NCBI GenBank assembly: GCA_023379555.1
Contig: JAMCQR010000058.1
Location: forward strand, 5,080-21,400
Reading direction: 5' to 3'
DNA length: 16,321 nucleotides
DNA from: Thermoplasmatota archaeon
GTDB lineage: Archaea > Thermoplasmatota > Thermoplasmata > Thermoplasmatales > GCA-001856825
Part shown: piece by piece, positions 698-4,644 of the stretch
Layout: each line of letters starts with the position of its first letter
How positions within the stretch are numbered: position 1 is the stretch's first letter
Program-made: the position numbers and the translations under genes
The notes under the pieces: generated by a model
Database searches by the model: none
What the model was told of the DNA's origin: nothing
The model's input: only the letters and a program-made list of their open reading frames with translations

Positions 698-1867
698 GTG
701 ATTAAGTGCTTCAAAGTGCGATTGTATCTTAATGAAGAACAGACGATTCTCCTTGAAAAGCACTTTGGATCATGCCGTTTTGTGTGGAATCATTTCCTTG
801 AGGTCAGGAATAAATATTATGCAGAACATAGAGACGATAAGAAGAAGGGACTGACCGTCTTTGACACCATGAAGATGCTCACGGTATTGAAGAAGGAATA
901 CACATGGCTGAACGAGATCAATTCCCAGAGCCTTCAGCAATCCCTTGTGAAACTTGACAAGGCATTCAAATCATTCTTCAAACATTATACCGATTATCCA
1001 AATTTCCGTTCAAAGAAAGGCAACCAGTATTTTGTCGTACCCTCTGGATTCAAGACCGTTGGAAACAGGCTGATCATGCCGAAATTCCTCGATGGAATAG
1101 AATACAGGGATAAGTCCCCCATTCCACAGGATATCAAGCAGATTGTTGTGACAAGGGACGTGGATCGGTACTATGCATCAATCCAATATGAAGCCGATGA
1201 GGTACTCCAGAAGGGAGCCGGTACCGTCGGAATAGACGTGGGAATAAAGGCATTCGCAACCATGTCGGACGGGTTGCAAGTTGAACCATTGAATTCTTTG
1301 AAGAGAAATGAAAAGAGGCTAAAGAGACAGCAGAAGAAGCTGTCAAGAAAGAAGAAAGGTTCAGAAAACAGGAAGAAGCAAATTGTGAGAGTGCAGAAAA
1401 TACATCAGCAGATCAGGGATGCGAGAACGGACTTCAGCCACAAGGTATCTACTGCGATAGCCAAGCATTATGGTACCGTTGTGATTGAAGACCTGAACGT
1501 AGCAGGAATGGCAATGAATCACCATCTTGCTAAGAGCATAACGGACCAGGCATGGTACCAGTTCGAGACCATGCTCGCATATAAGATGCAGTGGAGAAAG
1601 GCAGAACTCATAGAGATCGGAAGGTTCGATCCGTCATCGAAGCTCTGTTCAAAGTGCGGCAGCATGAAGCATGGTCTGAAACTGTCGGACAGGACATACC
1701 ACTGCGATGTCTGTGGTCTCACCATGGACCGCGATGTGAATGCATCGATAAACATCCGCAACATCGGTCTCATACAAGTAGGGAAGGGCATTCCCGAATT
1801 AACGCCTGTGAAAAGTGCTACAGCGGCGGAACTCCAGTCTGGAGGTCTACGCGTTGCCACTCTATGA
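698..1867 (+). CDS. tnpB: TnpB RNA-guided endonuclease (IS200/IS605 accessory protein)
   Basis: The protein has 389 residues and is full length for TnpB. The N-terminal part (about 1-45) matches the TnpB helix-turn-helix/REC-side region. A lysine/arginine-rich bridge-helix-like stretch lies around 202-235. The RuvC-like site is intact: Asp180 in GIDVGIK, Glu264 in VVIEDLNV and Asp346 in MDRDVNAS. A four-cysteine zinc knuckle (C317, C320, C336, C339) lies between the second and third acidic residues, as expected. TnpB proteins are known RNA-guided DNA nucleases that use an omega RNA read from the element's right end, and they help retain the element after excision. The start is GTG. With every key residue present, the nuclease is probably active. 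It is the only protein gene of this element. Confidence 0.93.
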   Translation: MIKCFKVRLYLNEEQTILLEKHFGSCRFVWNHFLEVRNKYYAEHRDDKKKGLTVFDTMKMLTVLKKEYTWLNEINSQSLQQSLVKLDKAFKSFFKHYTDYPNFRSKKGNQYFVVPSGFKTVGNRLIMPKFLDGIEYRDKSPIPQDIKQIVVTRDVDRYYASIQYEADEVLQKGAGTVGIDVGIKAFATMSDGLQVEPLNSLKRNEKRLKRQQKKLSRKKKGSENRKKQIVRVQKIHQQIRDARTDFSHKVSTAIAKHYGTVVIEDLNVAGMAMNHHLAKSITDQAWYQFETMLAYKMQWRKAELIEIGRFDPSSKLCSKCGSMKHGLKLSDRTYHCDVCGLTMDRDVNASINIRNIGLIQVGKGIPELTPVKSATAAELQSGGLRVATL

Positions 1868-1929
1868 ATCAGGAACCTGTGTTCCGAAAGGAACCCCACA
1901 CCATTTATGGGTGGGAGGATGTCAGTCAA
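1800..1929 (+). ncRNA. Predicted omega RNA (reRNA) scaffold of TnpB
   Basis: The end of tnpB and the element's right end can form three successive hairpins: CTCC/GGAG at 1832-1844, GGAAC-CTGT-GTTCC at 1872-1885 and the terminal CCCAC...GTGGG stem at 1895-1915. In characterised TnpB systems the guide RNA scaffold is exactly this 3' part of the gene plus the right end, and the guide is the next 16-20 nt of flanking DNA. Here the guide would start near 1926-1930 and run to about 1949, reaching the folC start. The position is inferred from family architecture; the 5' boundary is a guess. Confidence 0.45.
1895..1915 (+). repeat. Right-end hairpin of the TnpB element
   Basis: Five base pairs (1895-1899 with 1911-1915), one bulged A at 1900, then three pairs (1901-1903 with 1908-1910) around a TTTA loop. 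It resembles the left-end hairpin in its CCCC foot and in the purine-rich GGATG-like sequence that follows. Confidence 0.65.
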
Positions 1930-1946
1930 GGAAGTGTTCAAGCCCG

Positions 1947-3296
1947 ATGGACGGGGAGAAATTCCTGTTTACGCTTTCAAGATTCGGGATAAAGTTGGGA
2001 CTTGGACCCACAATAGCTCTTGCTGAATCCCTCGGTAATCCACAGGATAGCTTCAAGAGTGTTCACGTTGCGGGCTCTAACGGGAAGGGGTCTACAACAA
2101 CTCTAATCTACAGAATTCTAAAGAGAAAATATGCGACGGGTATTTACACATCTCCGCATATTAGAAGATTCAATGAAAGAATAATCGTAATGGATAAGGA
2201 GATACCGTCGACATTCATTGATGAGTTCGTCTCCAATCACACTTCCAAAATAGAATATAACGGGGAAGAGACTCAGCTTACTTTCTTCGAATATACCACA
2301 AACATGGCCTTCGATTATTTCAGGAAGAGTAATGTACAGATAGCCGCAGTTGAAGTGGGACTTGGAGGAAGACTTGACTCTACGAACATAGTGTCACCGG
2401 AGGTGTCTGTGATTACGAGCATCTCACTGGAACACGCTGATAAACTTGGTGGAAGCATCGAATACATTGCACGAGAAAAAGGTGGGATAATCAAAAAAGG
2501 AAAGCCCGTCGTTTTGGGCAAAATGCCTGATAGCGCTAATTCCATCTTGCGCTCGATTGCAAAGCAGAATGATGCTGAAGTTAAGGACATTGTAAATCTA
2601 GAAGTTAGAAACCTGAATTTCTCATTTTCCGGTACCAGATTTGTGGTAGACACCCAGATGGACACCTACGAAGTGGAGCTGAAAGCACTCGGGGAGCACC
2701 AGGTCAGTAACTCAATTGCAGCTATCCTTGCTTGTGAATCTATCAACGAACAGCCGAGCAAGAGTGAGATTACGCAAGGATTGAAGGAGGACCAGATTCC
2801 AGGTAGATTCGAGGTCAGAAGATCTGACCCCTTATTGATCCTTGATGGCGCTCATAACTCCGAAGCTTCAAGGATCCTTAGTTCAAACATCAGAAGATAT
2901 TCTGTGAGGGATCCACTTATCGTGCTTGGGGTTCTACGGGACAAGAATAGCTACAACATACTCCAGAACTTATCTGAGGTTTCTGATAGTATACTGATAA
3001 CGGAACCTAATGAACCAGAAAGGAAAAAAGATGGTGAAGAGTTGAAAAAAGAGGCAAAACTTTTCTTCAAAGAAGTCTATGTCAAAAAGATACCTTCTGA
3101 AGCACTGGAGGAAGCATTAAAGGCAAATAGAAATACCATAATTACTGGGTCCCTCTATCTGGTTGGGGAGATGGAACTGTTGCTTGACGAGAAAGATAAA
3201 TCAAAAACGGTTCCAGTGGAAATGGAGGAGGCTGGAAACGCTACTGGCCCAGTCAAAAAGAAACCAGATGATAATCAGTTTCCAATGGAAATATAG
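1947..3296 (+). CDS. folC: Folylpolyglutamate synthase / dihydrofolate synthase
   Basis: This Mur-ligase-family enzyme adds glutamate to folates (and possibly to dihydropteroate) with ATP, in the cytoplasm. Visible motifs are RFGIK near the N-terminus, the P-loop HVAGSNGKGSTT (residues 40-51, Lys47), TSPHIRRFNERI, VEVGLGGRLDSTN and the C-terminal domain motif LDGAHNSEA with Asp300, His303 and Asn304. Length from the ATG at 1947 is 449 residues, normal for FolC. The reading frame stays open upstream to 1815, but that part lies inside the TnpB element, so I chose 1947. Only about eight residues precede the conserved RFGIK block, slightly short for the family. The last 30 residues are a polar tail (from KTVPVEMEE to QFPMEI) unlike the family, and two origin-box-like repeats are encoded there. 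Confidence 0.9.
   Translation: MDGEKFLFTLSRFGIKLGLGPTIALAESLGNPQDSFKSVHVAGSNGKGSTTTLIYRILKRKYATGIYTSPHIRRFNERIIVMDKEIPSTFIDEFVSNHTSKIEYNGEETQLTFFEYTTNMAFDYFRKSNVQIAAVEVGLGGRLDSTNIVSPEVSVITSISLEHADKLGGSIEYIAREKGGIIKKGKPVVLGKMPDSANSILRSIAKQNDAEVKDIVNLEVRNLNFSFSGTRFVVDTQMDTYEVELKALGEHQVSNSIAAILACESINEQPSKSEITQGLKEDQIPGRFEVRRSDPLLILDGAHNSEASRILSSNIRRYSVRDPLIVLGVLRDKNSYNILQNLSEVSDSILITEPNEPERKKDGEELKKEAKLFFKEVYVKKIPSEALEEALKANRNTIITGSLYLVGEMELLLDEKDKSKTVPVEMEEAGNATGPVKKKPDDNQFPMEI
3211..3230 (+). repeat. Origin-recognition-box-like repeat 1
   Basis: TTCCAGTGGAAA followed by a G/A-rich tract (TGGAGGAG). The dyad core TTCCANTGGAAA matches the archaeal ORB/mini-ORB consensus as I recall it, in which a G-string follows on one side. 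It lies inside the folC 3' end, 158 bp before the orc1/cdc6 start. Confidence 0.55.
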
Positions 3297-3299
3297 GGG
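3280..3299 (+). repeat. Origin-recognition-box-like repeat 2
   Basis: TTCCAATGGAAA, then TATA, then GGGG. This matches the ORB layout of a TTCCANTGGAAA core plus a downstream G-string. It has the same orientation as repeat 1, 69 bp further on, and overlaps the folC stop codon. Both G-strings point toward orc1/cdc6, 89-108 bp away. Confidence 0.6.
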
Positions 3300-3355
3300 T
3301 AGCAAGACAGCCCCAGATATTTAGTCGTTTTGGTACAAGACATGATAAGAAACGG

Positions 3356-3363
3356 TTTTAATA
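3356..3363 (+). promoter_or_regulatory. TATA-like box of orc1/cdc6
   Basis: TTTTAATA lies 25-32 nt before the ATG at 3388, the distance expected for a leaderless or very short-leader mRNA. Confidence 0.55.
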
Positions 3364-3387
3364 CGGTTACTTTTCTCTTACCATATC

Positions 3388-4644
3388 ATGGGAAGTTCAT
3401 CCAAAAATTTATTTGAAAAATTCTCGAATGACTCCTTAATCGTTAAGGGGCAGAGGCAGGCATTAGAGCCTGGCTTCATACCTGAAAGACTTCCCCACAG
3501 AGAAAAGGAAGCGGAACTCTTGGCCGAGATTCTATCACCATCACTCAAGAATTACAAACCATCGAATGTGATAATTTTTGGAAAACCAGGGGTCGGAAAA
3601 ACCAGCGTTGTCAAATTCGTCGAGAGTGAAATTTCTAAAGCTATGCAGTCAAGACTTGATTCGAAAATAAAACTCATCGACATCAACTGTGGCGTAGTTG
3701 ACAACCCATATGGTGTTCTCCTCGCTGTAGGGGATGGCCTGCTTGAATCTTGGGAAGAAAAGCTTCCATTTACCGGCTGGCCACTCGATAAACTCTATAA
3801 CACCGTTCTAGAAAAAGTCAAAAATTTCGCAGGCATCACAATCGTCGTACTGGACGAAATAGACAAGCTTGTAAAGAAGAGTGGGGACTCGGTACTCTAT
3901 CAATTATTGAGGATTAACGAAGTTACAAGCGAGGGCAGAGTATGCCTCTTAGGAATCAGCAACGACTTGCGCTTCACAGAGTATCTTGACCCTAGGGTAA
4001 AGAGCCGGCTCATAGAGGAGACAATGGTCTACAACCCATACAACGCTTCCCAGATCTATGACATATTGAGAGACAGATCGCTCTATGCAGGTATAGCGGA
4101 CTCGATAGACGAGTCTGCAATGAAGACCTGTGCCGCGCTTGCAGCTCAGGAGCACGGTGACGCAAGAAGAGCAATCGACATGCTCAGAATCGCGGTTGAA
4201 CTGACGGAGAAAGGCAACAGCAAACGAATAGAAGACAATACGATATATGAGGCAAAGAACAAGCTGGAAAGGGATGTTGTAGTTGAAACGGTTTCGACTC
4301 TACCGCTACACAGCAAACTAGTTCTCTTCTCAATCTCGCTCATAAACGAAATTAAAAATGGTGGGAGTTCAAACATGGGTGAATTTTACGACTTATACGA
4401 GCGCATCGCAGATAGGATGGGAATCAGTAGCCTCACACAGAGAAGAGTTGCGGACATAATAGGTGAACTTACCAATCTCGGACTTATAGACTCGAAGGTA
4501 CAGAGTTTTGGCAGATATGGGCGGACGACCACAGCGACCCTAAATTACAGTTCCTCAAGGATGAAGGACATAGTCCTGAGCGATGAGGTTCTAGGGCAGC
4601 TAAAGGACGTCAAACCATTGCAGAAGTCGCTTCCTGTTTCGTAA
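3388..4644 (+). CDS. cdc6: Orc1/Cdc6 replication initiator
   Basis: This AAA+ ATPase binds origin DNA and is thought to load the MCM helicase in archaea. The 418-residue protein has Walker A GKPGVGKT (residues 65-72), Walker B VVLDEID (Asp156, Glu157), sensor 1 Asn192 in GISND and sensor 2 in GDARRAIDML (Arg260/261). The usual C-terminal winged-helix region follows from about residue 300 to 410. The N-terminal segment with FIPERLPHREKE is typical. Archaeal orc1 genes often sit next to the origin they serve, and two origin-box-like repeats lie just upstream. The ATG at 3388 is supported by the TATA-like box before it. Many archaea have two or more paralogues; whether this is the Orc1 or Orc2 class cannot be told here. 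Confidence 0.95.
   Translation: MGSSSKNLFEKFSNDSLIVKGQRQALEPGFIPERLPHREKEAELLAEILSPSLKNYKPSNVIIFGKPGVGKTSVVKFVESEISKAMQSRLDSKIKLIDINCGVVDNPYGVLLAVGDGLLESWEEKLPFTGWPLDKLYNTVLEKVKNFAGITIVVLDEIDKLVKKSGDSVLYQLLRINEVTSEGRVCLLGISNDLRFTEYLDPRVKSRLIEETMVYNPYNASQIYDILRDRSLYAGIADSIDESAMKTCAALAAQEHGDARRAIDMLRIAVELTEKGNSKRIEDNTIYEAKNKLERDVVVETVSTLPLHSKLVLFSISLINEIKNGGSSNMGEFYDLYERIADRMGISSLTQRRVADIIGELTNLGLIDSKVQSFGRYGRTTTATLNYSSSRMKDIVLSDEVLGQLKDVKPLQKSLPVS

Follow-up and report, generated by a model that had tools for sequence, protein, structure and literature searches.

The cores of archaeal origin recognition boxes (ORBs) are read by the winged helix of the initiator. The G-string that accompanies the core is recognised by the AAA+ domain, according to the accessible text of PMC3936714, and the archaeal consensus as quoted in the available part of PMC4153887 places six bases between GGAA and the G-string. 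Among described systems, the ORBs of Methanomassiliicoccales (accessible Table 2 of PMC4153887) resemble the pair analyzed here in their dyad core, five-base G-string spacing, mostly paired arrangement and location near orc1. Many of those pairs are inverted, on either the upstream or the downstream side of orc1/cdc6.1, whereas the present pair is direct, overlaps folC and has a second locus at gcvT. ORBs with G-strings also stand beside orc1/cdc6 at oriC1 of Haloarcula hispanica, but there two inverted boxes surround an AT-rich region and activity is proven (available sections of PMC3936714), while our boxes are direct and known from sequence only. In Thermococcales, ORB and mini-ORB repeats are embedded in a coding gene, which is the polymerase subunit gene DP1 and not folC as here (accessible part of PMC2643942). 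Precedents for initiator boxes in control, in the same available sections of PMC3936714, are an ORB-rich region downstream of oriC2-cdc6E and the DnaA boxes of the dnaA promoter. The latter likewise lie just upstream of an initiator gene, although DnaA is unrelated to Orc1 and regulation of orc1 is something we infer. Our literature search, conducted mostly without subscription papers, retrieved no mapped origin in Thermoplasmatales proper or at gcvT; it also drew on the accessible parts of PMC4010727, PMC4164010, PMC3984812, and PMC7565180.

The window, that is the whole stretch of DNA analyzed (16,321 nucleotides), comes from a genus that includes I-plasma. The nearest compared genome (G001) shares 35% of sampled 31-mers with it, and the Orc1 of "Thermoplasmatales archaeon I-plasma" (L069) is 87% identical. 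Related genomes were grouped into families f1 to f6, which are labels of the tool itself; f1 is the family of the window, and we take f6 to include T. acidophilum (G036), T. volcanium (G034), and Ferroplasma or Cuniculiplasma types.

The ORB pair upstream of orc1

The features considered below are as follows.

1947..3296, + strand: folC (TIGR01499, 336 bits), overlapping ORB1 at its 3' end and reaching into ORB2
3210..3231, + strand: ORB1, GTTCCAGTGGAA-ATGGA-GGAGG, within the folC frame (codons P-V-E)
3279..3300, + strand: ORB2, TTTCCAATGGAA-ATATA-GGGGT, with the folC stop TAG (3294–3296) inside
3318..3349, + strand: near-invariant block TATTTA...TTTTGGTAMAAGACNTGATAAG of the genus alignment, between ORB2 and the promoter
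3349..3363, + strand: predicted orc1 promoter element, BRE/TATA-like GAAACGGTTTTAATA, 24 bp upstream of the ATG and kept across the genus alignment
3388..4644, + strand: orc1/cdc6 initiator gene, 418 aa (TIGR02928, Cdc6_C winged helix)

A first-pass annotation had proposed a candidate replication origin directly before orc1/cdc6, and its gene assignment is correct (TIGR02928, 359 bits; cutoff 181). The product is a close relative of solved Orc1/Cdc6 chains, the best being 2qby_A and 2v1u_A, presumably both DNA complexes. The two direct copies of a 12-mer that the annotation described are indeed present on the + strand upstream of the gene, TTCCAGTGGAAA at 3211–3222 and TTCCAATGGAAA at 3280–3291, with starts 69 bp apart and no further zero-mismatch site in the whole window. 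The single one-mismatch match in the window is the reverse strand of the first site (3211), whereas the second (3280), a palindrome, matches on either strand. Each copy is followed by the expected G-rich run, imperfect in the first (GGAGG, 3227–3231) and GGGG at 3296–3299 in the second.

To score the boxes we used an ORB matrix of 22 positions, built only from ten ORBs of a sister order (PMC4153887, accessible Table 2). ORB1 reached 26.5 bits and ORB2 25.4 bits, while the third-best place in the window scored only 7.8 bits. None of 500 dinucleotide shuffles of the window reached the score of either box (shuffle maximum 24.75 bits). Both show the dyad core TTCCANTGGAA followed by a G-string, and the gap between GGAA and the G-string is five bases, the Methanomassiliicoccales spacing. 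Both lie on the + strand, and the window offers no inverted partner (the next score is 7.8 bits) and no AT-rich element between inverted ORBs. The end of ORB2 is 87 bp from the ATG of orc1. The AT-rich DNA said to extend to 3387 proved modest, 3211–3387 having 59% A+T against 55% in the window; the AT-rich part is 3318–3387 (69% A+T), and 333 of the 16251 70-bp windows are at least as AT-rich.

The first-pass annotation said nothing of the overlap of ORB1 with the folC frame, of the folC stop in ORB2 or of the lack of an inverted partner. The FolC family match stops at residue 453, upstream of the boxes. Across 11 aligned genus sequences (the window and L061–L070), 203 of the 423 full folC codon columns have an invariant residue, but the third base is invariant in only 10 of these 203, three of which are the P-V-E codons of ORB1. 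For the invariant V, P, T, A or G residues (n = 65), it is invariant in two, both in ORB1. For three given columns to lie together among 10 of 203, we calculate a probability of about 9e-5, which is a guide only, the sequences being related and four of them nearly identical. On the evidence of this alignment, the ORB1 codons within folC are frozen at the DNA level. The ORB1 core TTCCAGTGGAA is invariant in 11/11 sequences, ORB2 reads TCCA[AG]T[GC]GAAA and then GGGG in all 11, and the distance between the boxes is 67–69 bp. ORB2 is intergenic in seven of the 11 and conserved nonetheless; the window and L061–L063 have lost the upstream folC stop, and their frames terminate within ORB2. Matrix scores, conservation and codon constraint bear out the claimed match to the archaeal ORB core and G-string, the imperfect G-run of ORB1 apart. 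That both repeats are ORBs is strongly supported by sequence and constraint, and Orc1 is predicted to bind them.

Between ORB2 and orc1, the stretch 3318–3363 is near-invariant and ends in the TATA-like GAAACGGTTTTAATA, whose position suggests a promoter role. The block at 3318–3349 is possibly a melting element or a regulator site. Ten of 11 genus genomes carry its 22-mer (3328–3349) once with zero mismatch, upstream of orc1; the other, G009, lacks an orc1 match, and G002 has an extra match with two mismatches. As a general origin element the 22-mer was discarded, having no match in the 28 gcvT loci scanned. The TATA-like element lies 48 bp from the end of ORB2, which does not cover it; given this gap, Orc1 at ORB2 would be expected to bend, recruit or titrate rather than to cover the element.

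To follow the boxes beyond the genus, the 250 bp before orc1 were scanned with cutoffs of 18 (strict) and 11 bits in 68 of the 98 genomes with an orc1 match. A box was found in 13 of 14 f1 loci at 18 bits or more and in all 14 at 11 bits or more, in 7 and 9 of 15 f4 loci, respectively, and in the one f5 locus at both cutoffs. With this matrix, none was detected at 11 bits or more in f2 (0/1), f3 (0/5) or f6 (0/32). The box before orc1 is therefore kept in three families and undetected in three. Two boxes of at least 14 bits occurred together only in f1, in 10 of its 14 loci, and none of 204 control pieces inside orc1 reached 18 bits.

A core common across the genome, which the first-pass annotation would have held against its proposal, was not found: G001 has 6 exact matches at 5 sites. 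Core-plus-GGG matches numbered 28, in 10 of 11 genus genomes, and every one with more than 12 bits sits at orc1 or beside gcvT. Sampling of 1.37 Mb from the genus gave 15 matches of 16 bits or more: five are orc1 boxes of three genomes, seven belong to gcvT or its surroundings up to about 16 kb away, and three are elsewhere. The exact cores elsewhere in G001 (two sites on C6, one on C37) were set aside, as they come without a good G-string and score at best 12.9 bits. Those on C6 (L001 and L002, G001:C6:6561 and 8142) match TTCCACTGGAAA exactly, are separated by 1.58 kb and show no clear G-string.

A second ORB locus at gcvT-pdxT-aspS

The second locus comprises gcvT, pdxT, and aspS, all of which pass family cutoffs in a whole-protein scan. 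A minus-strand box precedes the gcvT start by 36 bp in 9/9 full-length genus loci and by 35 bp in G012; two further f1 genomes have it at −148 and −164. A gcvT box is thus present in 12/12 full-length f1 loci (14.5–27.3 bits), a count that omits L230, where gcvT is cut by the contig end; L246, a second, partial match of G016, was left out of scanning. A tRNA-Phe gene adjoins the box in all 11 f1 loci scanned. Within the genus, an exact pattern found an inverted partner just 3' of aspS, 3.0 kb away, in 4 of 11 genomes (G003, G006, G007, and G011). In the five loci of f3, f4, and f5, boxes stand on one side of gcvT (two loci) or on both (three), inverted, with G-strings outward. The ORB matrix gave no gcvT box in the one f2 locus.

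In f6, the gcvT boxes carry a C-string where other families have the G-string, for example GGAAATACACCCC (L231–L244), and the ORB matrix misses them for this reason. The C-string was first seen by eye and the pattern search was performed afterwards. It returned 25 matches, 13 at gcvT and 12 elsewhere, against 2 for the reversed control. Such boxes bracket gcvT in 6 of 9 f6 genomes and lie on one side of it in a seventh (exact pattern); in the remaining two, degenerate copies were seen at gcvT by eye.

orc1 and gcvT are on different contigs in 9/9 genus genomes where both were found, and 459 kb and 497 kb apart in G018 and G022. Box scores in the genus are mostly 19–30 bits at orc1 against 14.8–22.9 bits at gcvT. 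Two genomes share a third, weaker box at an equal distance of about 16 kb from gcvT (L277, G007:C2 near 146,351, 16.4 bits; L312, G006:C23 near 59,871, 19.5 bits).

GC skew in related genomes

Raw GC skew was uninformative, as it tracks gene strand (correlations 0.57, 0.57, and 0.85). We therefore used strand-corrected third-base GC skew of mechanical ORFs on sampled stretches of five relatives, with significance taken against 5000 permutations. The turn is the skew to the right minus the skew to the left of a site, and a change from minus to plus is expected at an origin. Within 120 kb of gcvT, the turn was +0.058 in G007 (0/5000), +0.081 in G006 (29/5000), +0.148 in G018 (0/5000), and +0.127 in G022 (12/5000; 556/5000 within 60 kb). 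In G011 it was +0.031 and not significant (947/5000), with only 20 kb on one side; the gcvT box of this genome falls in a gap between sampled stretches. One stretch of the sampling was short. The minus-to-plus turn at gcvT is significant in four of the five genomes, and a small sample of a T. acidophilum-sized f6 genome gave the same sign there (213/5000).

At orc1, none of the five relatives showed a significant turn within 120 kb. Values were +0.006 in G007 (2049/5000), +0.012 in G011 (1055/5000), −0.010 in G006 (3152/5000), −0.101 in G018 (4840/5000), and −0.017 in G022 (3162/5000), the two f4 genomes having the opposite sign. A weak local turn appeared in G011 within 60 kb (+0.036, 158/5000), where the cumulative minimum of the orc1 contig, at 118,627, is at orc1. 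In the two complete f4 genomes, gcvT falls within the best-fitting range for a single origin (460–530 kb in G018 and 500–510 kb in G022), with scores of 0.055 and 0.052 against 0.017 and 0.015 for an origin at orc1; permutations gave any-origin fits equally good in 31/2000 and 1/2000, respectively. The cumulative skew check suggested for the orc1 site thus went against it in these relatives, the turn being at gcvT and, apart from the weak G011 signal, not convincingly at orc1. Skew alone does not prove an origin.

Roles of the two loci

The proposed origin is only partly supported. ORBs lie beside orc1; the pair is direct and not inverted, and the skew turn of relatives is at gcvT. The architecture of the inverted pair and the skew of relatives suggest that the main origin is probably at gcvT, on another contig. 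Since base composition in relatives points to gcvT, the pair in the window more likely controls the initiator or constitutes a minor origin. Direct, adjacent to a promoter and strongly constrained, it is best explained as a putative Orc1-binding control element. Taken together, we favor, with a probability of about 0.58, a principal origin at gcvT and an Orc1-binding control site of orc1 in the window, which may also be a minor or backup origin. Orc1 would bind both direct boxes, with its winged helix on the dyad core and its AAA+ domain on the G-string. By analogy with the DnaA boxes before dnaA, binding upstream of its own promoter would link both the expression of orc1 and the amount of free initiator to replication. 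The main replication start would take place at the inverted ORB pair flanking gcvT-pdxT-aspS, and the orc1 pair might additionally fire as a minor or backup origin.

Several observations count against a principal origin at gcvT with a control site at orc1: orc1 boxes outscore gcvT boxes in the genus, the skew of G011 is weak at orc1 and not significant at gcvT, the outgroup has ORBs around orc1, and ORB2 is off the TATA-like element. Part of this evidence would suit an active origin at the orc1 pair, alone or with gcvT, where Orc1 binds, melts 3318–3387 and loads MCM. Two strong ORBs beside orc1 with a conserved AT-rich stretch, the local G011 signal, the ORB pairs around orc1/cdc6.1 in the outgroup Methanomassiliicoccales (available part of PMC4153887) and the frequent use of several origins by archaea, as reported in the accessible literature, are consistent with it. 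However, it is opposed by the lack of a significant orc1 turn within 120 kb in 5/5 genomes, the opposite sign in two complete f4 genomes, the direct orientation of the boxes and the failure to detect a box before orc1 in f6 (0/32) and f3 (0/5), and we consider such an origin unlikely, if still a serious contender.

The outgroup arrangement and the loss of the box in f3 and f6 could also be read as traces of an ancestral orc1-linked origin with little present function, but the strong current constraint on the third bases of ORB1 and on ORB2 makes a mere relic improbable. That the repeats arose by chance or as an artefact of folC codon use, as might be argued from ORB1 being coding and ORB2 being coding too in the clade of the window, is very hard to maintain: shuffles (0/500), control pieces (0/204) and the conservation of ORB2 where it is intergenic (7/11) led us to reject this source.

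The preferred reading, a main origin at gcvT, may extend to Thermoplasmatales as a whole, with the origin parted from the initiator gene, replication starting at inverted gcvT ORBs, a C-string variant in f6 and the folC-overlapping pair at orc1 acting as an initiator-sensing switch; this we advance tentatively, at slightly under even odds. If true, inferring an origin from an ORB beside orc1 would point to the wrong place for the main one in Thermoplasmatales, and the orc1 pair would offer a clean test case for archaeal initiator autoregulation. As precise loci, orc1 and gcvT can be distinguished by read coverage.

The two ends of folC

The mechanical folC ORF spans 1815–3296, while similarity to relatives begins at about 1926–1947. 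A 1310-bp insertion carrying a tnpB gene (698–1867) occupies 616–1925: in L062 and L063 the flanking sequence on either side is continuous with that of the window, and the site itself is empty. Insert DNA also makes up the beginning of the mechanical ORF (from 1815). At the other end (3246–3296), stop-codon loss has lengthened FolC in the clade of the window (the window and L061–L063), and its new C-terminus is spelled by ORB2 DNA.
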